Below, in pieces: positions 1 to 53,418 of a stretch of 64,000 bases of DNA. A model generated the notes under the pieces. That model worked only from the letters and a program-made list of their open reading frames with translations. It did no database searches and was not told the DNA's origin. The number at the start of each line of letters is the position of its first letter. Within the stretch, counting starts at the first letter, position 1. Origin of the DNA: Talaromyces rugulosus (taxonomy: Eukaryota; Ascomycota; Eurotiomycetes; Eurotiales; Trichocomaceae); assembly GCF_013368755.1 (NCBI RefSeq), contig NC_049561.1, positions 1 to 64,000 of the forward strand, written 5' to 3'. The position numbers and the translations under genes were made by a program.

Positions 1-110
1 CTAACCCTAACCCTAACCCTAACCCTAACCCTAACCCTAACCCTAACCCTAACCCTAACCCTAACCCTAACCCTAACCCTAACCCTAACCCTAACCCTAA
101 CCCTAACCCT
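1..110. repeat. Telomere repeat tract (CCCTAA)n
   Basis: About 18 uninterrupted copies of CCCTAA run from the first base and stop at the pyrimidine-rich sequence near 111. The strand orientation (C-rich strand reading inward) is that of a left chromosome end, so base 1 is at or very near the physical end. TTAGGG-type repeats are standard for most Pezizomycotina. Confidence 0.98.
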
Positions 111-1700
111 CCTTTTCCTTTCCCGTTCACTTCTCTCTTTCTCTTTTTTCTACTCCATATACTTGCCTCTCGCTGGGGTAACCACTGGATTATACTCCTC
201 GCACCATCATTGGTAACCCTAACCCTGACCATGATCGACCCCTCTTCCTAACCCTGACCGACACCCTTTCCTTTTATTTTCCATTTCCCCGTCTTTTTCT
301 TCTGCATCGATGCTGGTCCACACTCTTCGCGGTCTTTCTGACAACCCCGAATCTGGCCCCGTGCACCATCATTGGCAACCCTAACCCTGACCTTTTCCTT
401 TTCTCTCCTTTTCTTTTCCTTTTCTTTTCCTTTTCTTTTCCTTTCCTTGTCTTTTTCCTGTTCTTTTCCATTCCTTTTCTGTTCTCTGTCTTTCCTTTTC
501 CTTCCCTATTCTTTTTCTTTGCCTTTTCTGTCCCGTTCCTTTCTCTCTTATATTCCTTTTCCTTTGTTTACTTTTCCTCTCTTTCTCTGTCTTTTTCTGT
601 TCTTTGTACTTTCGTCCTTCTCTTCTGGTTACTGTGTATAATAACCTTTTTGCCGGTAAAATCATGATATTGTACCTCTTATACCATCATTAATAACCTG
701 AACCCTGACTCTCTCCATTCTATCTCTGGTACGATCATTGGTAATCCTAACCCTGACTGCACTGTATTACTACTTGGTCTGTTTTTCCATCCTTTCTGCC
801 TTTCCTATCCTTCCTATCTTTTCGGCTTTTTTGCTTTATCTACTTTCTCTGTTGTTTCACTTCTGTCCTTTTTCTTTATTATATATAACTGCCTCTCGCT
901 GGGATCACTGCCGGATTGTGCTCCTGGCACCATCATTGGTAACCTTAACCCTGACCTTTTCCTTTCCTTTTCCTGCCTGTCCGACCTTTCCTGCTCTTTC
1001 AACCTTTCTAATTTTTTCTGTCTTTCTGGTCTTTTCTACTTTTTATATTTTTCTTCCTGTTTGTGCTATTCCTATTCTTTCATTTCCGTCTTTCTTTTTT
1101 TTCTATTATATATAATTGTTTCTCATGGGGATGACAACCGCATTGTGCCCCTTGCACCATCATTGGTAACCCTAACCCTGGCCACCATGGGCCCCTCTCC
1201 CTAACCCCAACCGATACGTCATCCTCTCTCTTTCCTTTTCATCTTCTCCTCTGCTTCTCCGAACTCGTCATGACACTCTGCCGTCTCCCCGATGATGCCT
1301 CAATTGGGCCCTGTGCACCATCATGGGTAACCCGAACCCTGGCCTTGGACAACGATGTCCCTCTTTGCAACACTCTCCTTTCCTTTCTTTCTGGTCTTGC
1401 CATTTCTTTTTCTCGCTTTCTTTTGGTATTCTGTTATATATATATTATCTATGTCGATCTGTGTATATATATATCACTCTCTTGATTCAATATTCAAAAT
1501 ATATATTCCTCGGACTGGTTTATATTGACATCTGTAAATATATATAATCACTGAATAATGCTTTTATTGATCTGGTAAAACCCCTGCTTCATGCGTGTAT
1601 ATTCTATGCCTTCCTATTGAACTTTCTGTCTCATCCATGTATATACCTGATCTGGGTTCTGATAATCTACCTGATCCTGATGCATCTATGCAAATATTTG
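111..1700. repeat. T-rich subtelomeric zone with degenerate telomere-like motifs
   Basis: Strongly pyrimidine-biased sequence (TTTTCC/TCTTT runs) in which a motif of the form caccatcattggtaaccc followed by taaccctgacc recurs about seven times (near 202, 366, 683, 730, 929, 1155 and 1316) at irregular spacing. The motif contains one or two telomere-like CCCTAA words. Open frames here are low-complexity Phe/Ser/Leu on one strand and Lys/Arg/Glu on the other and are not credible genes. The same zone recurs, RIP-mutated, at 7921-8348 (shortened) and 14131-15540, so it belongs to the subtelomeric units. Confidence 0.85.
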
Positions 1701-1707
1701 GAACTGC

Positions 1708-2097
1708 CTTGACCGTCATGCGGGCCTATGCCTACAAACCTCTGCTTGACCGTCATGCGGGCCTATACCTACAAACCTCTGCTTGACCGTCATGCGGGCC
1801 AATGCCTACAAACCTCTGCTTGACCGTCATGCGGGCCTATACCTACAAACCTCTGCTTGACCGTCATGCGGGCCAATGCCTACAAACCTCTGCTTGACCG
1901 TCATGCGGGCCTATGCCTACAAACCTCTGCTTGACCGTCATGCGGGCCTATACCTACAAACCTCTGCTTGACCGTCATGCGGGCCAATGCCTACAAACCT
2001 CTGCTTGACCGTCATGCGGGCCTATGCCTACAAACCTCTGCTTGACCGTCATGCGGGCCAATGCCTACAAACCTCTGCTTGACCATCATACGGGCAT
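1708..2097. repeat. 37-bp tandem repeat, 10 copies plus a partial
   Basis: Exact 37-bp periodicity starting cttgaccgtcatgcgggcc and ending with acaaacctctg. Ten full copies fill 1708-2077, and an eleventh is partial and diverged. Copies differ only in a central six-base slot with three variants (tatgcc, tatacc, aatgcc) in the order 1,2,3,2,3,1,2,3,1,3. The array lies just beyond the helicase stop codon, between the gene and the telomere. Four decayed copies lie in the same place in unit B (8349-8516). Confidence 0.95.
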
Positions 2098-2147
2098 TTT
2101 GTGCTTATGGAACCTCCTCTATTTCTATATTATTGTGGTGTATGTAT

Positions 2148-5100
2148 CTACATATGGCTTATGATTGAATTGGAATCCTCACTGCTCTCGACATCTACCT
2201 GCATCGTATCGTCGACCCATGAACACATCCACGTCATCTCTTCTACCAACCCACTACGCTCCTCTCCACGTTTTCCAAACTTCCGCTGAAAATGACGAAT
2301 CAACGCGGCCTGGTTCTCATGGGGGACCCCTCCCCCGGGCATCTGCGCCAACCGCCGCTCCCATGCTGGCTGGATCACCTCCCGCATCGGTCCATGCAAC
2401 AACTGCGCCATGGTGTGCGCCGCCGTCTCCAAATATCGACATGCTTCTTTGGTACGCTGATATCCACCATGATCGACACGAACCCATCGTGGACATATCC
2501 ACTGCGGCGAATGGCACTGAAAACATACCGCATAATCCTCATACCCGTTCCTCCCATCTTCGCGTTGATTCCCGGTCACCTTGCGGATGGTCTCCTCGAT
2601 CCACGCCGCCGCCTGTTGGCCTTCGGCCCGGGGACATTGATACGTGAAATGCTCGCTGGGTGCCTCGTGCATCGCGCAAATCCGGCATCGTCCCACCCAC
2701 CGGTCAAAATGCTCCCGGATGGAATCCACCGTTCGCGCCTCACGCTCGATGTGTGATCGTAATTGCTCCCATGGCTCGTTGTATCCTCTCCGCCGGGCAT
2801 GCGGCATTGTCACCATGGTGAATGCCTCGCTTAACTTTCGTTTCGGGGACCGCGCCGGTGCCGGGACTGGTGATCTGGCCTGGACCTGAACCCGCCTGGC
2901 CGGTGATATGGCCGGGGTCTCACTCTGCGTGGTCGGTGATGTGGCCTGCGTCTCAACCGGTATGGCTGCCGCACAACATCCATCACACGCCGCTTCACCC
3001 TCCTCGCACTGCTGCCGCTGGTACCCATCCACCTCCCCATCCAAATATGGATCGAACACGCCTCGTCGACATGGCTGATCAATGTACCGCTGTACCTGCT
3101 CCAATGCCCGCAATGATCCCGCATCTCGATCGGTCACTGGGTCCCCCCATCCACCACCACTACCGTCCAAAACCATCACCGCCGTGCTGCCCTGCCCATC
3201 TCGCCCGGCACGCCCACTCTCCTGGGCATAATCCAACAACGATCGGGGACGCCCAACGTGGATCACACACCGGATGTCGGGGATATCGATGCCCATGCCT
3301 AATGCACTGGTGGCCACGATGACGCCGCTGGGCGTCTGTCGGAATGTGCTCAACATCCCGGCTCGATCAATCGTGTGGGAATGGTATGCACCGCATCCCA
3401 ATGCCTCCGCGACCTGCTCCGTCTGGTGCCGGCTGTTGGCGTACACCACCACCTTGCCGGGCGAATATCGCGGGATCTCCTGTTCAATCCACGCCATGAT
3501 GGCCGCTCCCACGTCACCACGTCGGCCATGCTCCTGCGGCCGCGCAATGCGGACCACCCGATATGCAATGTTGTGACGACTGGTACGCGCGCGGATCCAA
3601 TGCACGGTGCTGGGGGGGAAATACATCCGCTGGCACAATCGCTCCTCGTCCTCTCGGGGCATCGTCGCCGTCAACAACAACATGGGGGCACGGTACCGGA
3701 CCAACTGCCCCAACTGCGTCATCGACTTGCGGAAATCGTACTGGTCGTGCAATGCGATGTGGCATTCATCGATCACGATCCGGTCCAACTGGCCGGTGAA
3801 CTGCTTGCGGTTTAAAAACGTGCTGAATGTTTCGTCACGTACGGCGGACTCGGGCGTGATTAACACAATCGATGCACCATCGGCGGGTTGCCGGTTGTTC
3901 CATGCGACACATTGAATGTCTAATTCCGCGCATCGACGCTGTAAATCATCTCGTAACGACACCAATGGGATGATAACGACCGTCGTGCCACCGCGGGCCA
4001 TCCATGCCGGCAACATGAACAACAAACTCTTGCCACCACCGGTGGGCATCACGCCGATGACCGGGCTCTGTCCTTGGATCACGGCCTGCACAATCTGCTT
4101 CTGTGGCCCGCGAAATGCGGCGTCCGGTCCCATCATGTCGCGCAACGCCTGGTCGACATCCATGCGCTGCATCCGCTGCCACCGTTCCTCCCGGCTGCGC
4201 TGCGCCTCGTCCGTGAACCACGATGTGCTGGATGCTGGGGGCGCGCTAAATGGATCGGCATCCGGGTCGGACGGCGGCTGGCATGATGCAAACCCTAACC
4301 ATGTATGCCAATCCTGACTGCTACCACGATATCGTTCTCGCATGGACGCCATGGCGCCAAACAACTCGCGGCTCTCCCGGGCGTATATGCCACCGGCCGT
4401 GTGTGGATCATGCCCGGCCTGACGATCGGCGGCATCGGCCAACAATTGCACCTCGTCCATGGCCTCGGGGTCGTCTCCATCATCCGCCGCAAATCGATAT
4501 TTGTTGCGTAAATACCGCCGGCTGATGGCAATCGCAACCTCACGATATGATGCAATGTGCAATGATTGACCGCGCAATCCCATGGCACTCTCGCGCTGCA
4601 ATATGTGTCGTAATCGTTCGGAATTCCATTTCGCTTGGTGTGGGTGGGCGGTCCAAATATGGCTGGACACCTGGTCCCGTTGATATATATTTCCACTGAC
4701 CACCCGCTCGAACGGCTGCACCAACCACAAATACCACACTAATAACTCACCCACCTCGCGTGGTAAATATCGATGGATGATCTTAACGTCGCCGCTCAAT
4801 TGGTAACCCTTGTGGTACTGCGCGACCAATACCACCATGCCATCCTCGATAAACATATTACGGATCCCACCCATGGGACTGTTCTCGTGCCGGATGCTCA
4901 ACAACTCGGGGGCCCGCGCCGGTTGACCCCATGTGAACTGGATGGCCACCAACAACTTCTCTAAAAACGCAGTGATCCGGTTCTGATACGCCATCCATCG
5001 CGCCGGATGAAACCCTTGCCCGTCGGCCTGGATGAATCGACGCCGCACGGCTGGGTCCTGACGGATTCGATGCCACATCCAATGCTCCCCATCCACGGGC

Positions 5101-6758
5101 CATTGCGTTCGGGTGTCCTGTAAAAAACTCCATCGTGCCTGGTTATTGCTGGGGTCGTCATACAAACGGTCCCATGGAATGGCTGGCACGGCGTCGGACG
5201 GGCATCCTAATATGTCGTCGATCAATATCCGCCGCGCGTCCTGGACCACCGCGTGCACCATGCCACGAAACTCATTCATGGTGAACTGCCGGTCCTTATA
5301 ACATAACTCGTCCCCATTCTGCCACTGTACATGGCCGGCGCTGGTCGTGTTGTAATGGATCTTCAACCCATATGTGCGCAAATCCAACATCCATTGCGTG
5401 GGGCCTTGCGATCCGCGCACCATGAACCGATCCATCATCTGGGTCACCCACTGCAAACATCCTTTGCGGCCTGGCGAACTGGGTGGCGGCGATCCACCAT
5501 ATGCGCTGTCCCAATCCGTGTGGTCCATGGAACTGGGCAACTCGGCCGCATCCTCCTCCTCGGGCTCGTCACTCAATTCGACGGCTTTCTTCACCACCAT
5601 GAACCGCGCGACCTTGATCACTCGCGATAAAATGGGCGGGTAATCCTCGGGCGTACGGAAACCGCCCTCACGAACCCCCAATACGGCTGCGGCACACACT
5701 AATGCGCTGTCGTACTCCCGTCGGGTGATGCGCTGGTTCAACAATTCGATGCAAAAATCCAAACACGCCCGCTCCACGGGGCTCAATGGCGGCACGGTGA
5801 TGTTGCTGGCTTCCTCCTCATTCTCCGGGGGGCGCTCAATATCAAATATGGCATCCACATCAACCGTTCTCCCCATGGCCGTCTCCTCCATCGTCTTCTC
5901 TATCCCGTCACTCCTATCATTGAAAAAATCGGGTTCGTTGCTGTCCACGGACAACGAATCAATCGACATGGTGTCTCTCTCCTCCTCCTCCTCCTCCTCC
6001 TCCTCCCCCTCCTCTTCCTCCTCTTCCTCCACCCACGGTGCCCGCGTGGCCCCGGATCGCGTGATCACCTTACCCTTGCTCACCTGGCGGGTGGGTGGAA
6101 TCCGCACCGCGTCGACCAACCGCTCCCATGCCATGCGCTGTCGTCGCGTGAATCGATACGGGGGACTGGTCCACTCGTGCGGCTGCTGCGTACGCCAAAA
6201 AAACATCAACATCTCCTGCCACGGCCGCACCTGCTTCACGATTGACTCCTCATCCTGGTACGCCTCTAACGGGGTGTACCGCGTCTGATGCTGCTCGGTC
6301 CGGATGGCTTCCAACCGCACAAACACCCCAATCTGGTGAATCACGGACAACTGGCTGATCGTGGCCAACCGCGCCATGGCCGTCCAAATGGCGTGGGCTT
6401 CCGGCTCGATGGACGGCTGGCCGTCGATATCCGCGGGGGGTGGGCTCACACTCTGTATCAAATCGGGGATGTCGAACTCCCCCAAATACTTCACCCACTC
6501 GGTTCGCCGTAACCACGGGTTGGCCTCGTCGACCTGGCCGGCCTGGATCTTCCGATCCGCGGCCTCCTGCACGCTGCGCCAATGCGCCTGCATGTTCTGG
6601 ATTAACGTCTCGCACGCATCACCGTCGGGGGCCACGGCTTCATCCGTCTCGGGAATAATCGCAAAATACTGCGAGTTGGCCTTGACGGGAAACAACCGCT
6701 GGCATTGAACGGGACGGCATGCCTGGTCCTGCTCGTGCTGAATCTGTTTCTGCTCCAT
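2148..6758 (-). CDS. Telomere-linked OrsD/RecQ helicase, TLH-I copy A (intact part)
   Basis: A 1536-codon open frame reading toward the telomere. RecQ-type motifs: Walker A MPTGGGKS near residue 904, DECH near 996, TATM, SALGMGIDIPDIRCVIH, and motif VI QESGRAGRDG near 1179, followed by a Cys-rich RecQ zinc subdomain ending EAACDGC. The last about 200 residues hold further CxxC clusters (CRIC, CFQC). Residues of about 240-262 are an acidic Glu run coded by a GAG/GAA microsatellite. Residues 600-800 form a separate region with R615, K650, R739, H783 and Y792 spaced like a tyrosine recombinase core (my inference). ATG at 6758 is the first usable start, but the same frame continues upstream to an ATG at 7133 through five stops, so the natural N-terminus is probably lost. 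GC content is far higher than in the other copies. No introns are needed. The family is known as telomere-linked helicase in fungi; its role in end maintenance here is inferred. Confidence 0.88.
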   Translation of the reverse strand: MEQKQIQHEQDQACRPVQCQRLFPVKANSQYFAIIPETDEAVAPDGDACETLIQNMQAHWRSVQEAADRKIQAGQVDEANPWLRRTEWVKYLGEFDIPDLIQSVSPPPADIDGQPSIEPEAHAIWTAMARLATISQLSVIHQIGVFVRLEAIRTEQHQTRYTPLEAYQDEESIVKQVRPWQEMLMFFWRTQQPHEWTSPPYRFTRRQRMAWERLVDAVRIPPTRQVSKGKVITRSGATRAPWVEEEEEEEGEEEEEEEEERDTMSIDSLSVDSNEPDFFNDRSDGIEKTMEETAMGRTVDVDAIFDIERPPENEEEASNITVPPLSPVERACLDFCIELLNQRITRREYDSALVCAAAVLGVREGGFRTPEDYPPILSRVIKVARFMVVKKAVELSDEPEEEDAAELPSSMDHTDWDSAYGGSPPPSSPGRKGCLQWVTQMMDRFMVRGSQGPTQWMLDLRTYGLKIHYNTTSAGHVQWQNGDELCYKDRQFTMNEFRGMVHAVVQDARRILIDDILGCPSDAVPAIPWDRLYDDPSNNQARWSFLQDTRTQWPVDGEHWMWHRIRQDPAVRRRFIQADGQGFHPARWMAYQNRITAFLEKLLVAIQFTWGQPARAPELLSIRHENSPMGGIRNMFIEDGMVVLVAQYHKGYQLSGDVKIIHRYLPREVGELLVWYLWLVQPFERVVSGNIYQRDQVSSHIWTAHPHQAKWNSERLRHILQRESAMGLRGQSLHIASYREVAIAISRRYLRNKYRFAADDGDDPEAMDEVQLLADAADRQAGHDPHTAGGIYARESRELFGAMASMRERYRGSSQDWHTWLGFASCQPPSDPDADPFSAPPASSTSWFTDEAQRSREERWQRMQRMDVDQALRDMMGPDAAFRGPQKQIVQAVIQGQSPVIGVMPTGGGKSLLFMLPAWMARGGTTVVIIPLVSLRDDLQRRCAELDIQCVAWNNRQPADGASIVLITPESAVRDETFSTFLNRKQFTGQLDRIVIDECHIALHDQYDFRKSMTQLGQLVRYRAPMLLLTATMPREDEERLCQRMYFPPSTVHWIRARTSRHNIAYRVVRIARPQEHGRRGDVGAAIMAWIEQEIPRYSPGKVVVYANSRHQTEQVAEALGCGAYHSHTIDRAGMLSTFRQTPSGVIVATSALGMGIDIPDIRCVIHVGRPRSLLDYAQESGRAGRDGQGSTAVMVLDGSGGGWGDPVTDRDAGSLRALEQVQRYIDQPCRRGVFDPYLDGEVDGYQRQQCEEGEAACDGCCAAAIPVETQATSPTTQSETPAISPARRVQVQARSPVPAPARSPKRKLSEAFTMVTMPHARRRGYNEPWEQLRSHIEREARTVDSIREHFDRWVGRCRICAMHEAPSEHFTYQCPRAEGQQAAAWIEETIRKVTGNQREDGRNGYEDYAVCFQCHSPQWICPRWVRVDHGGYQRTKEACRYLETAAHTMAQLLHGPMREVIQPAWERRLAQMPGGGVPHENQAALIRHFQRKFGKRGEERSGLVEEMTWMCSWVDDTMQVDVESSEDSNSIISHM

Positions 6759-7133
6759 GTGGGTAGGCTGTCCAATCTTTCAGATCCAGGACCACTGATA
6801 ATGCTTGATCCAATACTGCCACATAATAGGCATGGTAGTGCATATATATTAGCACGAATAGGAACTCAATTGACATCAATATCCATCAACAAACGCGACC
6901 AACTGTTGGATCACTATGGTCCGGATAGCCGGGATATTCAACTCAATCAGATCATGCGCGATATTAGGCCATGTACAAACATCATCGGCCAATGTGACGC
7001 ACATGATAGTAGACACATAACGGTGCGCGCAACGCAAATGCGTTTCAATCTAGCTAGGCCACACGGCATGGCGACACTCCCGGCATACCACAATAGGAAA
7101 CTCCTCTAGTTACTCGAAAAACGTGTTATACAT
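6759..7133 (-). pseudogene. Decayed N-terminus of TLH-I copy A (OrsD zinc finger)
   Basis: The helicase frame extends 125 codons further upstream to ATG 7133, encoding an OrsD/DUF3505-type finger (CRECRHAVWPS then IETHLRCAHR). Five in-frame stops interrupt it: TAA 7110-7112, TAG 7050-7052, TGA 6876-6878, TAA 6849-6851 and TGA 6780-6782. Each has a sense codon in another copy: CAA in B and C, CAG in D, CAA in D, CAA in B, C and D, CGA in B. All five are C-to-T type changes as RIP makes. Either copy A starts at 6758 without the finger, or it is inactive. Confidence 0.82.
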
Positions 7134-7542
7134 GATGATAATAATGAATTGCCCTGGTAAATGTGATAAATACTAATGCTATCTATAATAGTAATGGTAA
7201 TCTGTAGTATGGACAATATATGATTATATATAACCATGCCCTAATACGTCAGAACCCCTGACGATCCGTCATGGCGCGCACGCGATATATCCTGGCCACT
7301 AGCGCCCGTCGCACCCCAACCAAAACAACCTGAAAAACCCGTCCTTTTCAATTAACCACGACAGCGGCACGATAACTTGAATATCGCTCATTCTCCGGTG
7401 ACGAGCGATTTAATGGTATGAAAATAACTGGTCCAATTTTGAGGGCGATCAGGCGACAAAACCTGATTGTAGTCTACAAAAGTTCGTGATTGTAGTCTAT
7501 GACACTAACCCTAGATTTAACTAGCAAAAATAACCCTAAAAT
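7134..7542. other. Upstream region of TLH-I, constant centromere-side flank
   Basis: About 400 bp between the helicase start and the 47-bp array, with no gene. It is conserved at 13580-13988, 38306-38714, 52672-53080 and (partly) 53223-53322, so it is part of the unit. It contains two telomere-like words (actaaccctag and aataaccctaaa) and a short repeat gattgtagtctA around 7466-7500. It presumably includes the helicase promoter, but no promoter element could be assigned. Confidence 0.6.
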
Positions 7543-7918
7543 AGAGTTTGTGATTGTAGTACAGTTCACTACACTCAGGTATTTTGGTTAGAGTTTGTGA
7601 TTGTAGTACAGTTCACTACACTCAGGTATTTTGGTTAGAGTTTGTGATTGTAGTACAGTTCACTACACTCAGGTATTTTGGTTAGAGTTTGTGATTGTAG
7701 TACAGTTCACTACACTCAGGTATTTTGGTTAGAGTTTGTGATTGTAGTACAGTTCACTACACTCAGGTATTTTGGTTAGAGTTTGTGATTGTAGTACAGT
7801 TCACTACACTCAGGTATTTTGGTTAGAGTTTGTGATTGTAGTACAGTTCACTACACTCAGGTATTTTGGTTAGAGTTTGTGATTGTAGTACAGTTCACTA
7901 CACTCAGGTATTTTGGTT
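7543..7918. repeat. 47-bp tandem repeat, 8 copies (TLH-I right end)
   Basis: Eight essentially identical 47-bp copies beginning agagtttgtgattgtagtac and ending ggtattttggtt. Each holds an imperfect hairpin GTAGT...ACTAC. Copy number varies between units (8, 3, 1, 3, 2), but the array always stops in the same phase, followed by AG or AA. The final bases therefore read GGTTAG (GGTTAA at 53222), a telomere-like word facing inward. This is the constant right end of the unit. Confidence 0.95.
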
Positions 7919-7920
7919 AG

Positions 7921-8348
7921 AATAAGCCCTATACACCATCATAGATAATCCTAATCCTGGCCACCATAGGCCCCTCTCCTTAATCCTAACTGATATGTTA
8001 TCTGCTCTCTTTCTTTTTCGTTCCTTTCTTTCTAGTCTTACCATTTCTTTTTCTCACTTTCTTTTAGTATTCTGTTATATATATATTATCTATATTGATC
8101 TATATATATATATATCACTCTCTTAATTCAATATTCAAAATATATATTCCTTAGACTAGTTTATATTAACATCTATAAATATATATAATCACTGAATAAT
8201 ACTTTTATTGATCTAGTAAAACCCCTGTTTCATACATGTATATTCTATGCCTTCCTATTAAACTTTCTGTCTTATCCATGTATATACCTGATCTGGGTTC
8301 TAATAATCTACCTAATCCTGATACATCTATACAAATATTTGGAACTGT
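7921..8348. repeat. Truncated T-rich zone of unit B
   Basis: Begins abruptly after ttttggttag and aligns with copy A from about 1145, then skips roughly 150 bp relative to copy A before resuming at the tatatatatt segment. It carries many C-to-T and G-to-A differences. The start is the variable, telomere-side cut of unit B. Confidence 0.75.
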
Positions 8349-8516
8349 CTTAACTATCATACAGGCCTATACCTATAAACCTCTACTTAACTGTTATACA
8401 GGTCTATGCCTATAAACCTCTACTTAACCATCATATAGGCCTATACCTACAAACTTCTGTTTGACTATTATGCGGGCCAATGCCTACAAACCTCTACTTA
8501 ATCATCATACAGGCAT
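8349..8516. repeat. 37-bp repeat, 4 decayed copies plus partial (unit B)
   Basis: Four 37-bp periods from 8349 followed by a partial copy ending aggcattttg, in the same position as the array at 1708-2097. Copies differ from the telomeric array almost only by transitions. Confidence 0.85.
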
Positions 8517-8566
8517 TTTGTGCTTATAGAACCTCCTCTATTTCTATATTATTATGGTGTATGTAT

Positions 8567-11500: not shown

Positions 11501-13579
11501 ATACTCCCTATCCACAGGCCATTACGTTCAGGTGTCCTATAAAAAACTCTATCATATCTAATTATTACTAAGGTCATTATATAAACAGTCCTATAGAATA
11601 GCTAACATGGCGTCAGACAGGCATCCTAATATATCGTCAATCAATATCCGCCACATATCCTGGACCACCACATGCACCATACCACAAAACTTATTTATAG
11701 TAAACTACCAGTCCTTATAACATAACTCATCCCCATTCTGCCACTATACATAGCCAGCGCTGGTCATATTATAATAGATCTTCAACCCATATATGCGCAA
11801 ATCCAACATCCATTACATAGGGCCTTGCAATCCACACACCATAAACCAATCTATCATCTGGATCACCCACTGCAAACATCCTTTGCAGCCTAGCAAACTA
11901 GGTGACGGCGATCCACCATATGCGCTGTCCCAATCCATATAGTCCATAGAACTGGGCAACTCGGCCGCATCCTCCTCCTCAGGCTCATTACTCAATTCAA
12001 CAGCTTTCTTCACTACCATAAACCGCGCGACCTTGATCACTCACAATAAAATGGGCAGATAATCCTCAAATATACAGAAACCACCCTCACAAACCCCTAA
12101 TACGGCTGCAGCACACACTAATACGCTGTCATACTCCTGTCAGATAATACACTAATTCAACAATTCAATACAAAAATCCAAACACGCCCGCTCCACAGAG
12201 CTCAATAACAGCACAATAATATTACTGGCTTCCTCCTCATTCTCCAAAGGGCACTCAATATCAAATATAGCATCCACATTAACCATTCTCCCTATAGCTA
12301 TCTCCTCCATCATCTTCTCTATCCCGTCACTCCTATCATTGAAAAAATCGGGTTCATTGCTGTCCACAGACAACGAATCAATCGACATAGTATCTCTCTC
12401 CTCCTCCTCCTCCTCCTCCTCCTCCTCCTCCTCCTCCTCCTCCTCCTCCTCCTCCTCCTCTTCCTCCTCTTCCTCTACCCACGGTGCCCGCGTGGCCCCG
12501 GATCGCGTGATCACCTTACCCTTACTCACCTGGCAAGTGGATAGAATCCACACCGCGTCGACCAACCGCTCCCATGCCATGCACTGTCGTCGCATGAATC
12601 AATACAGGAGACTGGTCCACTCATGCGGCTGCTGCATACACCAAAAAAACATCAACATCTCCTGCCACAGCCACACCTACTTCACAATTGACTCCTCATC
12701 CTAATACACCTCTAACAGGGTATACCACATCTGATACTACTCAGTCCAAATAGCTTCCAACCACACAAACACCCCAATCTGGTGAATCACAGACAACTAG
12801 CTGATCGTGGCCAACCACACCATAGCCATCCAAATAACGTAGACTTCCAGCTCAATAGACAGCTGGCCATCAATATCCACGAGGGATAGGCTCACACTCT
12901 GTATCAAATCAGAGATGTTGAACTCCCCCAAATACTTCACCCACTTGGTTCACTATAACCACAGGTTGGCCTCGTTGACCTGGCTGGCCTAGATCTTCCA
13001 ATCTGTGGCCTCCTACACACTGTGCCAATGCGCCTGTATGTTCTAGATTAACGTCTCACATATATCACCATTAAGGACCACAGCTTCATCCATCTCAGGA
13101 ATAATCACAAAATACTGCAAGTTAGCCTTAACAGGAAACAACCACTGACATTAAACAAAACAGCATACCTAATCCTACTTATACTGAATCTGTTTCTGCT
13201 CCATATAGATAGGTTGTCCAATCTTTCGGATCCAGAACCACTGATGATACTTGATCCAATACTGCCACATAATAGACATAGTAATATATATGTATTGACA
13301 CGAATGGGAACTCAATTAACATCAATATCTATCAATAGACACGACCAACTGTTAGATCACTGTGGTCCAGATAACCAGGATATTCAACTCGATCAGGTCA
13401 TGCGCGATGTTAGGCCATGTACAAACATCATTGGCCAATGTAACGCGCATAATAGTGGACACATAATAGTACACACGACGCAAATACATTTCAATCTAAC
13501 TAGGCCACACGGCATGGTGACACTCCTGGCATACCACAATAAGAAACTTCTCTAATTGCTTGAAAAACGTGTTATACAT
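8567..13579 (-). pseudogene. TLH-I copy B, RIP-inactivated helicase
   Basis: Colinear with copy A from its stop codon (2148) to its upstream ATG (7133). The total length difference is 27 bp, which the longer Glu tract accounts for (about 27 Glu codons near 12397-12474 against 17-18 in A). Elsewhere I see transitions but no net indel. Fragments remain open, for example the motif VI region at 9434-9736 (DYAQES.CAGRDKQ) and the acidic segment at 12152-12595. Numerous TAG, TAA and TGA codons interrupt the rest. At two sites it keeps the sense codon that copy A lost near the N-terminus. Confidence 0.92.
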
Positions 13580-15540: not shown

Positions 15541-15599
15541 ATAAAATACCTGGATTATACACATGTATTCTATTCCACTCCATCAAACCTTCTGCCCTA

Positions 15600-20054: not shown

Positions 20055-20062
20055 GTCAGCAT

Positions 20063-22436: not shown

Positions 22437-22444
22437 CTTCTTAT

Positions 22445-44200: not shown

Positions 44201-44881
44201 AGTCTATTTATATCTAGAACAGGGCGCTAGATATCTAATCTATCTATTTTTAGTACATCTTATACTGACTAAACATATTTAACTGTGTTAATGTGGTCTG
44301 TTGGGCTACTATAATGATTTGGGTAAATTACTTTCTGATCTTAGCTAATACTGGTTCCTTCTCAGGATCTAGCTGGTCTAATAATGTCTGTAATATCCCC
44401 CAGTGCTCGTCCAATAAATATATGGCCTATTCTATACGTTCTATCTATAGGTTCATCTTGTGTGGTTTATAGGCCTGGATACATACCTTTTTAGCTTTTT
44501 TGATCTACTACTTGCGCTGTATAATTATCTACTTCATAGTCTGCTTAGCTGTATCCTACAAGAGCCACTCACTAGACTGCATAGGGACTGGGTTGTTAAT
44601 GGCGTCAATGTTAACAGTAAATTGCTGGGACCTGGGTCTATGACACATGAATTGCTGGCTGTAGATGATCTGCTATGGACGATCAGGTTTGGAGGTATAG
44701 ATTGCACACTTACAGGATTGATTATGTACTTAGGAATTCTTCTATATATATTAGATACGACAATACTACTGGATCTAGATAACCGTCTTGACCACCAAAT
44801 GGTATCTAGGATAATTATATTGGTATATGGGATATTAGGGATCATCTAATAACATAATGCATGCAATGGGCTTGTGGGGAA
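41288..44881 (-). pseudogene. TLH-II copy 4, distal part (nearly full helicase)
   Basis: Starts at atggccgccctggtgcc (equivalent to 16134 in copy 1) and is colinear with copy 1 without either hAT, which confirms both insertions. The minus strand at 41832-42170 reads a degraded helicase block, INKCHTILDSQ for the DECH motif (DE to NK, both G-to-A) followed by ILTAMLP. Near 42655-42695 the frame reads QARHSNHITKKIYAQK, keeping the H-x8-Y spacing. A LINE interrupts it at 44881. Confidence 0.88.
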
Positions 44882-44920
44882 ACCCGCCGGGAAAATCAAA
44901 AATCAACCTTTTGAAATTCA

Positions 44921-46852
44921 ATGCTACTGGAAGGCATCCAGGGCTTCGCTATGGCCCCTGGACTCCCCAATATCGACAACCACCCCCTAGACCCAGGGGG
45001 GCAGGCGCTAGGTCTGGTGAACCCCGTAGGGGCCTATATAGGCACCCCAGCGGGGACAGCACCACCAGCACCCCCCGAGGCAAGTGCAACAGTCCCTCAG
45101 AGCGAGGGCTTCTTGCCTAGCCTGGAAATCAACCCTAGGGAGTTGTTTCCCCCCCTAAGCAGCGTGCCAGGCTCCCAGGAAGCACCTAAAACTCTAGGGA
45201 AGAGACTACAGGAACACAGCCCTAACAGGGCAGAAAGAGCCCCCATGAAGGCCCTAATCGGCCCAGCCTACAAGGACATGGAACAGGCCTTATTAGGCCA
45301 CTTTGCAAGCAGCAATAGCGCGCTGCACGCGGAGATGGCCGCTATGAAGGCCTATATAACCTTTCTGGTAGAGGCTATGGAGCAGCGCCTCACAGGCTAA
45401 TTGGGCGCTCTGGAGCGCCGTTTCTCAACTCTAGAAGCTCAACAGGTCTTCCTGAACGCCCCAAACCACCCCCTAAAGCCCCTATCGTCAGGGAGCGACC
45501 GCCAGGGCCCACGACAGCCTCTGTCATTCCAGGGGACGACGTTTGCAGAGGTTGCCCATGGCCCTTAAGCTAACCTAAATAGGGCCGCTAAGCCCATAGA
45601 GCCACGCAGAGCCTCACCCCCGATATCAAAACCACTCTTTGGGGTGAAGCCTGTAGCAGGCTCCTAGTGGGCCGATATAGCGGCTAGCAATGTCTAGGAG
45701 TGGCAAATCGTTACAAAAAAACGGGCTTACTCCCCGAACCAGCCCCTAAAAGTCTAAATGGACCTAGGGAGCCTGAAGCCTATTCGTGGAAGCAATAAGG
45801 GAGACCGCAGGCTTATATTTAGGCGTGAAAATGGCTGTATCGCCTCTAGAAAGTCTAAAGCTGATGTCATCTTGCAGCTTAACCGCTGCCTAGCCCAGAC
45901 AGGCTTCCCGAACTTCGCCAGGGTAATAGACGCCAATTACACCGAATCAGGGGCTATCTCAGCCCTATTGGACCAAGGAAGCACCGTAGGCTCGCTATTA
46001 CCAGCCTATAAGGACCTATTAGTGGCTGCCTGCCACCGGGTTGACCCTGTAGTCATCTTAGTGGAAGTAGACCAATAGTGGCACAAGATTAAGGTGCATG
46101 CGGTGCTGGTAGCCCGCTATAGTGTCTTAGGGCTAGGCCTAGCCAGGAAAGAAATTGAATTAGGGGGCATATGCACCCTAATGAGAAACTCTATCTGGAT
46201 TAAGCCGATAGCGGCTATCCAGACTAATAAGCAGCGTTTCTCTACTATTGTTATAACAGTAGAAGGCCTAGATGACGCCCGCAGGCTACTCGCCTGGGGC
46301 GTACGCTTCGGGGGCAACAGGCACCCTACCAGCCCCTATCACGAAGTGGGTAAAGACACCGTTTGCACCCGATACTGCGGCATTGGCCACCGAACTTATA
46401 GAGGCTGCGGCACCCGACCACCACTCTGCACTGTGTGTGCTGGTGCCTATGAAGCCTAAAAGCACACCTGTAACGTGCTAGACTGCAGGGCCTAAACAGG
46501 CTACCTATGCCTGCATGTATCCACTAAATGCGGCAATTGTGGGGGGAAGCACCAGGCTGATTCCCTGGGGTGCCCCAAGCTTCGGGAGGCCCGCCGGCGA
46601 CTCCATAAGCGCTTCCCTGGCGTAGAGGTCGTTATGCCCCCTCCCCCCCCTGAATGGACTGAATAGGAAGGCGTTGCTGAGGAGGCTTCTTCCTCAACCA
46701 CTACCCAGGACGCCCCCCAAGCCCCAAAGCTTAGGGAGGTCGATGACGCTATGGAAGATGCCCCAGGGACATCACCCCTACCGTACTCATCCCCGTGTCC
46801 AACACCAACGCCTGGAGCTGCAGCCCCTATTAATGTTGATTATTCAACATAA
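44921..46852 (+). pseudogene. LINE ORF1 (gag-like, CCHC knuckles) with nonsense codons
   Basis: A single frame of 644 codons from ATG 44921 to TAA 46850-46852. It is interrupted only by TAA/TAG codons (for example after EQRLTG at 45400, after VEVDQ at 46078 and after GAYEA at 46459) and has no frameshift. The N-terminal part is Pro/Gly-rich; the C-terminal part has Cys-rich knuckles (CTRYCGIGHRTYRGC, CTVC, CGNCGGKHQADSLGC) near 46370-46580, as expected of an RNA-binding retrotransposon gag protein. The stops are as expected of CAR-to-TAR or TGG-to-TAG change. Confidence 0.85.
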
Positions 46853-49800
46853 TTGCGGCCGTACCTACCCCGCAACCTTAGGGGCTCTAGAAGCGGGGAT
46901 AGAGCGGCAAATAGGCATTATATGCCTGCAAGAGCCTTATATTGCTTATGACTTCTCCCACCCAGGCTATCTGCTGTACTGGCCAGGGGGGGAGAAGCGG
47001 GATCAACGGGTGCTTATGGCCATCCGTAAAGACCTTATAGGGGCGGTTAGGGTCGAGAACCGCACTGATTTAGTAGACCACCCCTATTTACAGGCCCTGG
47101 ACATATGGGAAGCACCAATAATTAGCGGGCATGCCCCCCGACGCACTAGAATAGTCAACTGCTATGATGTGTGGATTGGGGCCAGTTACCGGTGGCAAGG
47201 GGCCTTCCCTAGACGACGCCAGGCCATCGAGGACGCAGACTAGGACCTGCTTATAGTAAGTAGGTGCCTATTAGTAGGTAATTTCAACGCCCATAGCCCT
47301 TCGTGGAACCCACTGGCCAAGGACCAGGTTAACGCTGAGCCCTTGGAACAGCTTATAAAGCGGCACTCACTATATATTAATAACCCACTGGGGGAGGCCA
47401 CACACTATAAGAAGACCAAGGGGGTGTTAATTATTGATTTAGCGTTATCCTCGCTAACCCTAGAGCCTCTGCAAGCCTGGGAGATGGATAAGGATAAGCC
47501 TACAACATCTAACTATAAGCTTATCGTCCTAGCCTGGGAAGCCCTAGAACCCCCCTCAGGAGGAATCTCCGGGGAGATTACTAGGTGGTAAATAGAAGCT
47601 CTATAGGTAAACAAGAAAGCCCTAAAGCTGGCTATAGCAGCTTGGGCCTCAGAGGCTATAGGCCACCCCCCTTTTAGTAATCAATACACCAAGGAAGACC
47701 TTGCTAGAGAGGCTAATTAGGTGTAGGACACCCTAACCAGTATACTTAATAGACATACCAAAGCAGTACGGCTTTATACACGCTCTAAGCGGTGGTAGAA
47801 GCCAGAACTACAGCAAGCCTAGAGCTTATAGACTGCAGCCCACAAGCGGTGGCAGGCCCATACCTATACCAACACCGAATTCAAAGCTACAAGAACCGCT
47901 TATTACCATGAAATAAAAGCGGCTAAAAAGACCTGCTAGGAGGCCTTCCTTACTGAGGGAGGCCCTGGGGAGAAGGAAGAGTAGAAAAAAGGTTCTAACC
48001 CCACTAGGAACCCTTTTTCCAAAGGCCCTAGGGATGACCTGGAAAAGCCTTCTCCAAGAGATCCTAATAGGTGTTGAATAGTCTTACAGTATACTAAGCC
48101 ACGGACTAATCCTACCACCCCAGTACTCTAAGGCCCAGATCTAGAGGCTTCCCCTGCCACTACCATAGCCGATAAAGAAGTTCTAATTAGGGAAACGGCA
48201 TTTCCTAACGCCTTCTATAGCTCCTCTCCTGGGGAGCTACTAGGTGGACAGGCCCACATATTTATAACACCAGAGCGGATATATTAGGTCTTATTCAGCT
48301 AAAGCATTAAGAAAGCTCTAGGGGCCAACAGGCTCAATTTTAAAGTATATTGGCTACTCTGGGCACTAGACTTATCCCGAATTATAGAGATAGCTAGACA
48401 GTGTTTTCGGCTTGGGGTGCACCTAGGGGCCTAGAAGACTACTAAAGGCATCCTACTTTGGAAGCCAGGGAAGCCCGATTACATCTAGGTGAAGGCCTAG
48501 AGGGTGATAAGCTTGCTTAGCTGCCTGGGCAAGGTTGTTGAGAAGCTGGCTGTAGGCCTTATAGCAGACTGGTATGAGGCCCAGGGGGCTTTATACCCTG
48601 GACAAATAGGATGCAGGCGGGGCCGTGGGGCTATTGACGCGGTGGTCTGCCTCGTGCAAACAGTGCACGAGGGATGGACTCAAAAGCTTTTCACAGGCAC
48701 TATCTTTATTGATGTTATGGGGGCCTTCGACCATGTTGACCCCTATAAGCTTAGTAAGGCTATGGAAGCTGCAGGCCTAAATAATGACCTTATAAGGTGG
48801 ACCTTATCCTTCCTTACAAATAGAAGGGTCAGCCTCGTAATTAACGGTTATAAAGCCCCTGAACAGCCTATTGACTCAAGGCTGCCCCAGGGCTCACCGG
48901 TCTCCCCAATCCTCTTTCTTATCTATATCCGGGGTGTGTTTCAGGCTATGGAACAGCAGGTGCCAGGAATCAAGGCCCTGTCCTATGCCGATGACATAGG
49001 CCTGGTAGCCCAGGGAAGCTCGGTCTCTGAGATCTGTAGGCAGCTAGAAGCAGCGGCAAAAGCTGCTATTAAGTAGGGACTGGCAAATAGCGTCAAATTC
49101 GACCCTAAAAAGACAGAGGCCATCCTATTCTCTAGGGCCACCAGCAGGGAACATAAAAATCAGGTCCAGGAAGCTAGGGTGCAGGTAGAAGACGCTTTAG
49201 TGGCATTCTCCCCAACAGCCATCCGGTGGTTAGGGGTCTTACTAGATCCAAAGCTTACCCTCAAAGCCCACTATAAGTACCGCCTGCAAAAAGGTCAAAA
49301 TACTGAAAGACGAGTGCGGGCACTGTGCAAGGCCCAGGGGCTCCCCCCAGGCCTGGCATGGCGAATCCAAAAGGCCACCGCGCAGTCAGTGGCGCTTTAT
49401 GGGGCCGAGCTTTGGTGGCATGGGCAAAAGAACTGCCTAGAAGGACTGCAGGGCCTAATTAATAACCAGGCCCGGGCAGTCACAGGCATGCTGAAGTCCA
49501 CCCCGTTAGGACCACTTATAAGGGAGGCAGCTCTGGAACCAGCAGAGGCCCTATTAGATAGTAAACAGCGGCGGTATGCCCTGAGACTCCTAGGACTTCC
49601 CCAGGGGCATCCAGCAGCAGAAATACTCCCTATAACGCTTAGGGAGGGAGACGCCCATGCACAGCCTGGAGAGCAGCCACTAGAAGACCGAGCTTGGGCA
49701 ACACCAACCCGCCGAGGCCCCTGGAAGCTGGGCATGGGCCTGGCCCGCAGGCTACGAGAGGCCTTGACCGCCGACCCCTCCCAGGGCTTTGAGCGTACAA

Positions 49801-50882
49801 TAGAGCCTGGTAATAGGTCTATACCACTAGATTTCAGGATAGACTCCCCTGAAACCGCTATGCAATTAGCCTCAGACCCCCTAAGTGGGATAGGGAACAC
49901 CGACCTTTACTCAGACGGTTCTAGGTTAGACGATCAGCGCGTAGGCGCTGCAGTAGCTTATAAGCCACTTATTGGCCCCTGGAGGTCGCGCCTAGCTCCC
50001 CTGGGCGCAGGCTTCGAAGTCTTTGATGCAGAACTAATAGGAGTAGTCGAAGCCCTAGAGTGGGCGCTGGCAGAGAATCTTATAGGGCCAATTAGGGTGT
50101 TTTTAGACGCCCAGGCCGCTATAAGCAGGCTCCAGCATACCCGGCCTGGCCCAGGGCAAGCCCTAGCGCTGCGGGCACACGACCTAGCCGGGGAACTACA
50201 GGCCACCGGCCGCAGGGTTACCATATGCTGGGTGCCAGGCCATAAAGGGGTCCCAGGCAACGAGGAGGCCGATAAGGCCGCTAAGAAAGCTGCAGGGAGG
50301 CCCTGTACAGGCAAGTACTCAGGCATCTCACTGGCCCATGCCCGGCGGGCATGCACCGAGACTTATAGCGCTATCAAGGCCAACTGGCTCACTGCAAAGC
50401 TTGCAAGACGCACCCAACAGGTAGGCCAGGCCTACCAACCCCCCCGGGGATGGAAGCTTGACCCAATAGTGGCAAGCACCCCCAAGCACCTGGCGCGGCG
50501 GTATTACCAATTCAAGACCGGCCACACCCCAATCGGGGCCTATCTGCACCGAATCAAGGCCCGAGACTCCCCTAATTGCTTGGGGTGCTCTAGGGGGACT
50601 GAGACGGTAAGACACCTTCTTACAAACTGTCGACAGTGGTGCCACCAGCGGGAAAAACTATATGCCGGCTTGGCCGAAGCGGGGGTAAAGGCCCCGCAGG
50701 ATAGCGAGCAGTGCCCCGAAGCACGCCTATTCCAGGACCCAAAGGCCACTACAGCGCTGCTGGCGTTTATAGGGGCCATTAGGGAGCGAGAGGATAACCA
50801 ACAGGCCTGGGAGCAGGCCTATAAGACTGATAATTGGGGCATTGAGGCCCTGGATGAGGGAGAGCGAGAGGGGGAAGGATAG
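46833..50882 (+). pseudogene. LINE ORF2: endonuclease, reverse transcriptase, RNase H
   Basis: A 1350-codon frame from ATG 46833, overlapping ORF1 by 20 bp. AP-like endonuclease at 46840-47560 (IICLQEPYI; then GNFNAHSPSW, where the family has GDFNAHS, a G-to-A change of a catalytic Asp). Reverse transcriptase at about 48450-49076 (VISLLSCLGKVVEK, DVMGAFDHVD, LPQGSPVSPILF, YADD). RNase H near 49910-50300 (YSDGSR, FDAELIGVVEAL, DAQAA, WVPGHKGVPGNEEADKAA). A C-terminal knuckle (CLGCSRGTETVRHLLTNC) follows. Nonsense codons crowd 47241-48500; the last 567 codons (49179-50882) are open. Inactive as it stands. Confidence 0.9.
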
Positions 50883-51185
50883 CGGGCAGGGGCGGCCCGC
50901 TATTGTAGGCAACGCCCAAACGTTAGTGGCCATAAGGAGGGGGTAGTGGTTGCCACCCACTATAAGCCCCCGAATCGTCCTGCGCATATAAGCGGCATGG
51001 GGTGAGGAAAGTGCAAGATACCTTGAAAGCCTGGATCCAATGGGGGTAGAGGCACCGGCTTATGGGGGGCAACCCCTATAAGCAGGCCTAATCCACACGA
51101 ATCGCTGTCTGTCATAGCCTAGGGCTCGGTATAGACGTTAAATTTGATTAAATAATAATAATAATAATAATGGGCTTGTGGGGAA

Positions 51186-51824
51186 TGGTGATGTAGATAG
51201 CCTGTTGCATGCGTTTAGGGTACTGGTTATAATACTTGTGGAATGATGATATATATCGGCCATGGCGCTTGGCCTAATATGCGGGTTGATGTAAATGTTT
51301 GTCTAATTGACTATCTAATACCACCTGGTGACATAAACAACAAATCATAACCCGATATTTAGACTCGTACTGCAATATCTGTGCAATATTCGGCATCGCC
51401 ATGTTTCTATAAATGCATTAAATAATGGATAATGGTCCCTCTGACCAGGACATGAAAACAACTCTAAAATTATGCTAAAATAACCTTAAATTTTTATCAC
51501 TTTTCTACTTTAGGTAATGGTTGTGATCCTAATCAGGTATAACACTTCCGTACCCTAACCACCTCAAAATATAATCCTAACGATTTTCAATAACTTGTAA
51601 TAACATAGCTAATCAGTTAAATATACTTAAACTGATACTGTATATTGATAGTAGCGTCATATATCCCTAATCTAAATTTAAGCCTCTACCCTAATATAAA
51701 TGCAGGCGTGGAGAGTCAGTTAAATTAAAAAAACTAACTGACTTTCTTTTACCTAGTACAACATTAACATTTGTTAATAAAATAAAATTAATAGACTAGT
51801 TGGTTGCTTTTCTATTGATGATAG
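51186..51824 (-). pseudogene. TLH-II copy 4, proximal part and right end
   Basis: Continues copy 4 after the LINE target duplication (tggtgatgtagatagcctg) through the zinc-finger area and upstream flank, ending ttgatgatag at 51824. Decayed by transitions throughout. Confidence 0.85.
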
Positions 51825-51997
51825 CGGCGTTATATATCCCTGGTCTAAATTTAAGCCTCTACCCTAATATAAATGCGGGCATGGGGAGTCGGTTAAATTA
51901 AAAAAACTAACTAATTCTTTTTTATCTAGTATGACGCTAATGTTTGTTAATAAAATAAAATCAATAGACTAGTTGGTTGTTTTTCTATTAATGATAG
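51825..51997. repeat. TLH-II right-end scrap 1 (173 bp)
   Basis: Only the last about 170 bp of a TLH-II unit, from cggcgttatatatccc (upstream flank) to the constant end taatgatag. It follows the complete right end of copy 4 head to tail. No coding sequence. Confidence 0.88.
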
Positions 51998-52213
51998 CTA
52001 ATTGGTTAAATGCGCTCAAACTGATATTGTATATTGATAGCGGCGTCACATATCCCTGGTCTAAATTTAAGCCTCTATCCTAATATAAATGCGGGCGTGG
52101 GGAGTTAGTTGAATTAAAAAAACTAACCAACTTTTTTTTGCCTAGTACAACGCTAATATTTGTTAATAAAATAAAATCAATAGACTAGTCGGTTGCTTTT
52201 CTATTGATGATAG
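51998..52213. repeat. TLH-II right-end scrap 2 (216 bp)
   Basis: A second, slightly longer remnant starting ctaattggttaaatgcgctc and ending ttgatgatag. It includes the region of scrap 1, so it is an independent unit with its own cut point rather than a simple local duplication. Confidence 0.88.
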
Positions 52214-53222
52214 TTGGCCTTGACAGGAAACAACTGCTGGCATTGAACGGGATGGTATGCCTGGTTTTGCTTGTGTTGAATCTGTTTCTGCTCTATGTGG
52301 GTGGGCTGTCTGATCTTTTGGGTCTGGGACCACTGATGATGCTTGATCTAATGCTGTCGTATGGTGGGTATGGTAGTGCATATGTATTGGCATGAATGGG
52401 AACTTAATTGATATTGATATCTATTAATGGGCGCGATCAACTGTTGGATTACTATAGTCTGAGTGGCTGGGATATTTAACTTGATTGGGTCATACGCGAT
52501 ATTGGGCTATATATAAATATTATTAGCTAATGTGACGTGCATGGTAGTGGATATATAATAGTATGTATGACGTAAATGTGTTTTAATCTGGCTAGGCTAT
52601 ATAGTATGGCGATATTCTTAGTATATTATAATAGAAAACTTTTTTAGTTACTTAAAAAATGTGTTATATATAATGATAATAATGAATTGCTTTAGTAAAT
52701 GTGATAAATATTAATGCTATTTATAATGGTAATGGTAATCTGTAGTATAGACAATATATGATTATATATAACTATGCCTTAATATATTAGAATCTCTAAC
52801 AATCTGTTATAGTGTGTACATGATATATCCTGGCTACTAGTGCCTGTCACACCTTAACTAAAATAACCTGAAAAACCCGTCCTTTTTAATTAACCATGAC
52901 AGCAGCATGATAACTTGAATATTGCTTATTCTCTAATAATAAGTGATTTAATAGTATAAAAATAACTAGTCCAATTTTAAGGATGATCAGACAATAAAAC
53001 CTAATTATAGTCTATAAAAGTTTATAATTATAGTCTATAACACTAACTCTAGATTTAACTAGCAAAAATAATTCTAAAATAGAGTTTGTGATTGTAGTAC
53101 AGTTCACTACATTCAGATATTTTGATTAGAGTTTGTGATTGTAGTACAGTTCACTATACTTAGGTATTTTAGTTAGAGTTTATGATTATAGTACAGTTCA
53201 CTACACTTAGATATTTTGGTTA
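52214..53222 (-). pseudogene. TLH-I copy D (5' end only) with 3x47-bp repeat
   Basis: Begins at ttggccttgacaggaaac (equivalent to 6672 of copy A), about 30 codons downstream of ATG 6758. It covers the N-terminal OrsD part, upstream flank and three 47-bp repeats (53081-53221). It is the most AT-shifted TLH-I copy, yet it keeps CAG and CAA at codons that are stops in copy A, so it is useful for inferring the ancestor. Confidence 0.9.
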
Positions 53223-53418
53223 AGGCGATCAGGCGACAAAACCTGATTGTAGTCTATAAAAGTTTGTGATTGTAGTCTATAACACTAACCCTAAATTTAA
53301 CTAGCAAAAATAACCCTAAAATAGAGTTTATGATTGTAGTACAGTTCACTACACTCAGGTATTTTGGTTAGAGTTTGTGATTGTAGTACAGTTCACTACA
53401 CTCAGGTATTTTGGTTAG
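53223..53418. repeat. TLH-I scrap E with 2x47-bp repeat
   Basis: About 195 bp: starts ggcgatcaggcgacaaaacc (equivalent to 7444 of copy A), then the tagtctataaaag flank and two 47-bp repeats at 53323-53416 ending ttttggttag. It is the innermost unit; single-copy-type sequence begins right after it. Confidence 0.9.

Follow-up and report, generated by a model that had tools for sequence, protein, structure and literature searches.

The window analysed here is a stretch of 64,000 nucleotides (positions 1 to 64,000 of the forward strand of contig NC_049561.1) from Talaromyces rugulosus assembly GCF_013368755.1. It is the left end (C1L) of contig C1 in an assembly of six contigs and 35.76 Mb. Behind a short telomere tract it carries an array of eleven units from TLH-I and TLH-II, two families of helicase units. 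The units and their junctions were located by self-BLAST followed by base-level reading and are listed below, where "|" marks the cut point at a junction, YR stands for tyrosine recombinase and RIP for repeat-induced point mutation.

1-110, no strand: terminal telomere tract, CCCTAA repeats
111-7920, minus strand: unit 1, full-length TLH-I, from the telomere to the constant right end ...TTTTGGTTAG|
2151-7133, minus strand: TLH-I gene, 1661 codons, with OrsD, YR-like region and RecQ helicase
4182-5819, minus strand: YR-like region of TLH-I, 546 amino acids (aa)
7542-7921, no strand: tandem array of a 47-bp repeat (8.1 copies in unit 1) at the TLH-I constant end
7921-14131, minus strand: unit 2, TLH-I, RIP-decayed, outer cut at about unit position 1140-1280 (uncertain because of local repeats)
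14132-28010, minus strand: unit 3, TLH-II, outer side nearly complete (matches TLH-I position 176), two DNA transposons inside
16241-20054: inverted copy of the 3.8-kb transposon in unit 3
22445-26258, plus strand: 3.8-kb DNA transposon in unit 3, not TLH
28011-29791, minus strand: unit 4, TLH-II, cut at ...AATAG|GTTC
29792-38763, minus strand: unit 5, with non-TLH sequence from 29792 to about 35298 lying outside the inner TLH-I part (35299-38763)
38764-41287, minus strand: unit 6, TLH-II
41288-51824, minus strand: unit 7, TLH-II, split by an insertion at about 44882-51145
51825-51997, minus strand: unit 8, TLH-II stub, 173 bp
51998-52213, minus strand: unit 9, TLH-II stub, 216 bp
52214-53223, minus strand: unit 10, TLH-I, outer cut ...GCGAG|TTGG, last base A instead of G (TTAA)
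53224-53418, minus strand: unit 11, the innermost, a TLH-I stub that abuts non-TLH sequence |AAAGAGAATAGGG

The right ends of TLH-I units lie at 7920, 14131, 38763, 53223 and 53418, and those of TLH-II units at 28010, 29791, 41287, 51824, 51997 and 52213. All are within 1 bp of the eleven junctions proposed in an earlier note on this DNA. As that note also stated, the left partner is always the complete inner end of a unit; each stops at the terminal sequence of its family. TLH-I units close with ...TTTTGGTTAG| (also written ...TATTTTGGTTAG|), the decayed unit at 53223 having TTAA, and TLH-II units close with ...TTGATGATAG| (also written ...GATGATAG|), with AATAG at 28010. The right partners begin at eleven different points. 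All eleven units retain their inner ends despite the insertions in units 3 and 7, and self-BLAST found no outer halves of targets beside the joints in the window. The 47-bp array is shorter in the other units read than in unit 1. Each of its repeats holds the sequence TGTAGT-7-ACTACA, which stops 18 bp short of the cut point. The best inverted repeat in the terminal 46 bp of TLH-I is notable (matched by 4 of 300 mononucleotide shuffles), while that in the terminal 59 bp of TLH-II is not (69 of 300); the arms of both stop 18 bp before the cut, a regularity spotted post hoc.

The same inner ends recur at other chromosome ends of this genome. DNA searches with these ends gave at least 50 matches for the TLH-I query and at least 33 for the TLH-II query, in a single genome whose arrays were taken in pieces rather than whole. 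Eleven of the 12 chromosome ends are readable, and the left end of C4 starts masked (its first 300 bases are N). The TLH-I end is present at 11 of the 12 ends and the TLH-II end at 7, such that the two right termini seen in the window are used elsewhere, in a total of 44 distinct junctions (28 TLH-I, 16 TLH-II) among 65 right-end junctions. In all inner-end matches the TLH body is on the telomere side, and all sit no more than about 100 kb from a chromosome end except for one interstitial TLH-II relic of 118 bp (C6:822572-822689), which also stops at the constant end. This solo right end may mark a former chromosome end or have been inserted internally. Because the 65 junctions were selected by pattern matching the unit end, among loci from the inner-end searches, their constant end is given by construction; the points at which BLAST matches stop are independent support. 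Of the 33 TLH-II matches (the query itself among them), 24 stop at query positions 1751-1756, the constant end being 1752. The other nine comprise the query, two that stop at an insertion (1113 and 1161) after which the unit resumes, two that lie past the end, starting at 1746-1747, and four that stop at 1007, 802, 594 and 1716. A survey of alignment ends flagged 12 of 143 alignments, five of which stop at the TLH-II constant end. Not among the 65 are at least five older right ends of TLH-II units, which the pattern failed to pick up.

The partners of the 44 distinct junctions lie in TLH units, all in the same orientation, in 31 cases and elsewhere in 13. None of the 65 junctions has a (CCCTAA)2/(TTAGGG)2-type tract within 60 bp, which extends to the whole genome the earlier observation that the window junctions lack interstitial telomere tracts. 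Of the distinct junctions, 35 are confined to a single place and nine recur, making up 30 of the 65 instances. Three of these nine belong to the window, and the earlier count of at least eleven independent events is not supported as it stands. Blocks holding several shared junctions, which the earlier note had set against its own reading, were not seen: no pair of consecutive junctions is common to more than one chromosome end among the 65, and simple segmental duplication was rejected on this basis. The two TLH-II stubs (173 and 216 bp) stand in opposite order at C1L (51824-52213) and C3R (25909-26298), suggesting that one pair of target sites has been used more than once.

The sequence at the outer cut was read from the partner side, as the majority base of intact aligned homologues of the partner. 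This was possible for 36 of the 44 distinct junctions; the eight without an intact homologue were left out. Position -1 is G and -2 is a purine (R) in 35 of the 36, and -3 is a pyrimidine (Y) in 31. The 36 include C1R:18796, which was then set aside (low-complexity partner, homologues giving T at -1 and -2), and 5 of the 35 junctions counted depend on a single homologue. In the 30 junctions with at least two homologues the corresponding numbers are 30, 30 and 27. YRG accounts for 5.5% of background positions (P ~4e-35 on the 35 junctions). On the other side of the cut, +1 is a purine in 28 of 28 distinct TLH-I junctions (P ~4e-10), +2 a purine in 20 and +3 T in 16; +1 is a purine in 11 of 16 TLH-II junctions. 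These P values assume independent junctions and were calculated after the motif had been spotted. Judged by sequence, the TLH-I target YRG|RRT can be read as a degenerate version of the telomere repeat TAG|GGT. Unit end and target are identical over 1-6 bases in most junctions with an intact target, and as G at -1 and often A at -2 match the unit's own end, part of the motif could be microhomology. Since -2 is R rather than A, +1 and +3 are constrained and base classes are conserved, more than microhomology appears to be involved. The outer cuts, which the earlier note had ascribed to erosion at arbitrary points, thus look chosen (YRG| fit and R at +1 in 28 of 28). Together, the fixed end and the target motif argue for joining encoded by the element and against random erosion and capping.

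Outer TLH-I copies are younger than inner ones. The farther a TLH-I right end lies from the tip, the lower are its GC content (rho -0.886, P 7e-12; n=33, counting terminal units) and its identity to the C1L terminal copy (rho -0.61, n=33), the latter trend being retained by the 18 copies beyond 9 kb (rho -0.60, P 0.008). TLH-II alone gives no significant age trend (n=14). A TLH-I match is present at all 11 readable tips. In a survey of stops (32 matches listed, 28 of 90 candidates scored), the tips C2L, C3L, C3R, C5L, C5R and C6L each have a stop-free 1661-aa TLH-I match, the match at C2R runs from residue 385 with no stops and that at C4R from residue 433 with one. Five stops are found in the TLH-I of C1L, C1R and C6R, those of C1L all upstream of 6776, and all inner TLH-I matches among the 32 listed contain stops. 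Comparison of the live C2L copy with unit 2 shows 197 substitutions in 1.5 kb (152 G>A, 45 C>T and nothing else), which is the RIP pattern. In old TLH-I units, the terminal 50 bp (e.g. 38714-38763) show few hits at RIP-type sites: over ten units, 6 of 80 such sites are hit there versus 818 of 2105 further in. This sparing may be an edge effect of RIP, protection or exchange.

Exchange between ends is indicated by near-identical tips and shared blocks. Over its first ~550-600 bases, every one of the 11 readable tips matches that of C1L at 99.8-100% identity. Compared with C1L, the right ends of the terminal TLH-I units sort into two classes, one at 100.0% and one at 95.0% identity. The block ending in |GGCC occurs at five places, identical apart from gaps, array copy number and, in one copy, a single 300-bp window that differs by 0.3%. 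Three of the four copies of block |GGTC are identical, as are two copies of block |GGTG. Each block then has different inner partners, and identity reaches the constant end. Blocks shared at 100% identity with different inner partners suggest that homologous exchange is superimposed on end addition. Both homologous recombination via the conserved terminal repeat and movement of a composite tip by the constant end can account for them, and because exchange is a sufficient explanation the identical blocks were not used as evidence for or against the model given below. The earlier proposal of ordered outward addition by a constant inner end is supported. Its corollary, that gene order is a time series, stands insofar as outer TLH-I copies are younger; a strict series does not, as homologous exchange overlies it.

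The TLH-I protein (P0002, 1661 aa), to which the best tip copies are 100% identical, consists of an OrsD domain, an unannotated middle part and a RecQ helicase. OrsD (PF12013) is matched at an E-value of 3e-22, and 29 of the 30 sequences of one alignment have it too. The helicase has the domains PF00270 and PF00271, and RecQ chains in PDB match the profile at E ~1e-59. No reverse transcriptase (RT) domain was found by Pfam in the TLH-I protein, in agreement with the earlier description of a helicase unit lacking this enzyme, and no Rep/HUH domain is among the Pfam hits shown. The TLH-I protein is matched by TLH-II at ~26-36% identity, in pieces that include the YR-like region. A TLH relative from Talaromyces marneffei (P0105, 950 aa) has OrsD and the YR-like region and no helicase domain match.

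The unannotated region reads as a candidate YR: it matches most of the YR catalytic set in order and spacing. R302, K337, K346, R426, H470 and Y479 (numbering of the window piece 4182-5819, minus strand) are invariant in 62 of 62 sequences, namely the window's own and 61 homologues chosen from the best 120 of 881 found. The boxes are GQPARxPEILSIRH, YHKGYxxSGDVKIIHRYLP, AYREIAIGISRR and QAGHSxHVAGMIYAR; their XerD counterparts are TGLRVSELVGLTMSD, GKGNKERLVPL, HVLRHAFAT and LLGHSDLSTTQIYTH. Compared by eye, the two agree in residue order, the R-x-x-E box, the K-G...R-x-x-P hairpin and the H-x8-Y spacing. In hhalign, the TLH arginine box falls in register with that of DUF3435 captains (n=79), a weak result (P 0.034); two control regions of the same proteins gave P 0.30 and 0.34, and captains versus XerD 0.017. 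A motif pattern drawn up post hoc matches XerC, XerD, 84 of 120 TLH homologues, none of 8 non-YR controls and 4 of 200000 shuffles. It misses FimB, FimE and lambda Int.

From these features, TLH units are best explained, with a probability of roughly 0.55, as one-ended, telomere-terminal DNA elements that would move by means of the YR-like part and RecQ and use the chromosome tip as their second end. A terminal unit spans the sequence from the telomere to the fixed inner end, and this fixed end is what is joined to the YRG| target. Only one constant end was recognised; the other side of a live unit is the telomere. The steps envisaged are as follows. The YR part would cut both the donor inner end and the target, and the TTAG end would be joined to the target. 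RecQ helicases have 3'-to-5' polarity, and RecQ might unwind from the inner end toward the telomere while the second strand is filled in. As the chromosome tip would serve as the second end of the element, a single, presumably non-reciprocal, join could move the whole tip. Joins in the wrong orientation or far from an end would produce dicentrics or gene loss, leaving only outward caps near ends to survive, so that position and orientation could be explained without any end targeting. Homologous exchange among near-identical tips would then spread blocks and RIP would decay the inner copies.

Several observations weigh against this model. The box-II histidine usual in YRs is not conserved in TLH, which differs in this from XerD. 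Box III resembles the subtilase sequence HGTHVAG (Pfam Peptidase_S8, best E-value 0.002, 5 of 22), and its second histidine is present in 59 of 62 sequences rather than all. Pfam scans up to an E-value of 10, a PHROGs scan and a PDB search with the YR-like piece alone gave no YR hit for the region. In PDB, the 60 best of 277 matches to the whole alignment are helicases, and the best match to a trimmed profile is a translation factor (E-value 0.0015, taken as chance). In HMMER with the TLH profile, five bacterial YRs fell within the range of shuffles, and hhalign of TLH against bacterial YRs was null, although this small-set test has low power: captains, themselves a YR family, did not get beyond 0.4% with these bacterial YRs. 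Neither a reciprocal nor an excision product was recognised. At about six places, all outside the window, alignments end short of the constant end for no apparent reason, and homologous recombination in the conserved terminal repeat can also yield the identical shared blocks.

Given the profile searches that returned no YR, the 546-aa region could be some other conserved DNA-binding or nuclease domain, with joining carried out by another enzyme that recognises the TLH end. This alternative, which may overlap those below, is unlikely but carries real weight; it has to accommodate R, K, R, H and Y with H-x8-Y spacing that do not vary in 62 homologues, and a pattern (post hoc) that catches XerC and XerD and spares the 8 non-YR controls. 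A rather unlikely alternative dispenses with an element enzyme altogether: a chromosome breaks and is capped by a terminal fragment with a fixed end (e.g. a linear extrachromosomal TLH molecule) through microhomology-mediated repair. The 1-6 bases of identity noted above are what such repair would leave, and capture of a broken end predicts joining at an end that has no telomere tract. Trimming of ends would nevertheless blur the donor point, yet 24 of the 33 BLAST matches stop together, and microhomology based on base identity does not predict the purine at +1 (28 of 28), T at +3 or the tolerance of G for A and C for T.

Homologous recombination alone, in the form of break-induced replication inside TLH repeats as for Y' or the Colletotrichum subtelomeric repeats, would account for the near-identity of 11 of 11 readable tips over the first ~550 bases and for blocks |GGCC, |GGTC and |GGTG being identical between ends up to the constant end, and the conserved last 50 bp could seed the exchange. 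It is improbable as the sole cause: recombination relocates junctions but does not make 44 distinct ones with the same unit end and a shared motif, and consecutive junctions are never common to two ends. Still less can be said for an RNA route, in which a TLH transcript or cDNA whose 5' end is the constant end would be captured at broken ends using a borrowed reverse transcriptase. The constant end does lie upstream of the TLH gene, first-strand cDNA could end in ...GGTTAG-3', and telomeric RT elements exist in fungi according to the available text of PMC12857005. This route is highly improbable, however, as the TLH-I protein lacks an RT domain, the telomere and subtelomere move with the unit, and the target motif is left unexplained.

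Two further candidates were rejected. Healing by telomerase would need the opposite strand polarity, an objection based on reasoning only, and nested insertion keeping both target halves does not fit window joints that have no adjacent outer halves. Helitrons combine a Rep/HUH nuclease with a Pif1-type helicase and have 5' TC and 3' CTRR ends, whereas the TLH helicase is of the RecQ type and the unit starts, in gene sense, with CTAACC or CTATCATC.

Other features of the window concern insertions and the border of the array. The transposon at 22445-26258 is flanked by an 8-bp target duplication, CTTCTTAT (22437-22444 and 26259-26266), and as it lies inside unit 3 this unit is interrupted and not terminated. 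From the size of the duplication it is presumably hAT-like. The two inverted copies in unit 3 are 86% identical and have similar ends (TAGACT... and ...GAAGACTA). An open reading frame (ORF) in the unit 7 insertion (49077-50882) encodes RNase H (PF00075), and a 99% identical stretch is the partner of the TLH-II end at C3R 19394. ORFs at the inner border of the array encode a piece of an APH-type phosphotransferase (54931-55578) and an FAD-binding oxidoreductase (60521-61900).

Among known systems, the Drosophila elements HeT-A, TART and TAHRE likewise form head-to-tail terminal arrays with a constant inner joint and outer truncation. Those are retrotransposons that replace telomerase; the TLH-I unit has no reverse transcriptase, its gene is transcribed toward the telomere, and TTAGGG telomeres are kept. 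The yeast Y' element is also a helicase-encoding subtelomeric unit spread between ends. Its spread is by homologous recombination, whereas TLH makes new junctions at non-homologous targets. Of the Y'-type traits, exchange between ends is likely in TLH, and an interstitial tract within 60 bp is seen at 0 of 65 junctions. Cryptons and Starships (with DUF3435 captains) resemble TLH in having a recombinase-like gene at a fixed 5' edge, facing inward, and a short core at the insertion site. They are internal insertions with two ends, in contrast to TLH, which has one end, a telomere replacing the other, and a fused RecQ, and whose YR is putative. DUF3435 matches occur in this genome at C2:6805623-6807073, C6:33974-35461 and C5:5305286-5306579, two of them within 40 kb of a chromosome end.

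Published fungal systems, as far as the available parts of these sources go, share some of these traits. In Colletotrichum higginsianum, one of three repeat families with an OrsD-type (DUF3505/OrsD) domain and a helicase is found at all 24 subtelomeres in one orientation, and homologous recombination between the repeats has been proposed (PMC5576322). Like these, and like the TLH of Fusarium oxysporum, the present units encode a helicase with an OrsD-type domain, are telomere-adjacent and have a single orientation. Full and truncated TLH copies at chromosome ends have been described, with TLH regions of F. oxysporum co-locating with RT elements (PMC12857005). The published cases are single full-length copies with recombination, or co-locate with RT (PMC5576322, PMC12857005). 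The constant inner end with a target motif and the recombinase-like region are found here and not in the available text of those two papers. MoTeR, FoTeR and telomeric Penelope-like elements are also telomere-linked mobile DNA of fungi, but they have a reverse transcriptase gene of their own and are located at telomere repeats (PMC12857005, PMC4522978, PMC5576322). M. graminicola has 13 RecQ copies, and fly telomeres are maintained by non-LTR (lacking long terminal repeats) elements (PMC4522978). Literature joining tyrosine recombinases, Cryptons or Starships with RecQ or telomeres, covered by titles and abstract openings and with most subscription journals outside the scope, described no such element.

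To our knowledge, there is no agreed answer as to why RecQ-like genes are present at many fungal telomeres. A wider claim, with odds slightly below even, is that fungal TLHs transpose a new class of mobile DNA, characterized by a YR-RecQ fusion, movement of whole chromosome tips by a single end, YRG|RRT targets, the telomere as second end and RT-free renewal of chromosome ends beside telomerase. If the gene encodes the joining enzyme, the TLH puzzle becomes testable, as a fixed end, a target motif and a candidate catalytic tyrosine are now named. Such elements would be a DNA-only counterpart of the fly terminal arrays, and a join could delete subtelomeric genes and swap the chromosome tip in one step.

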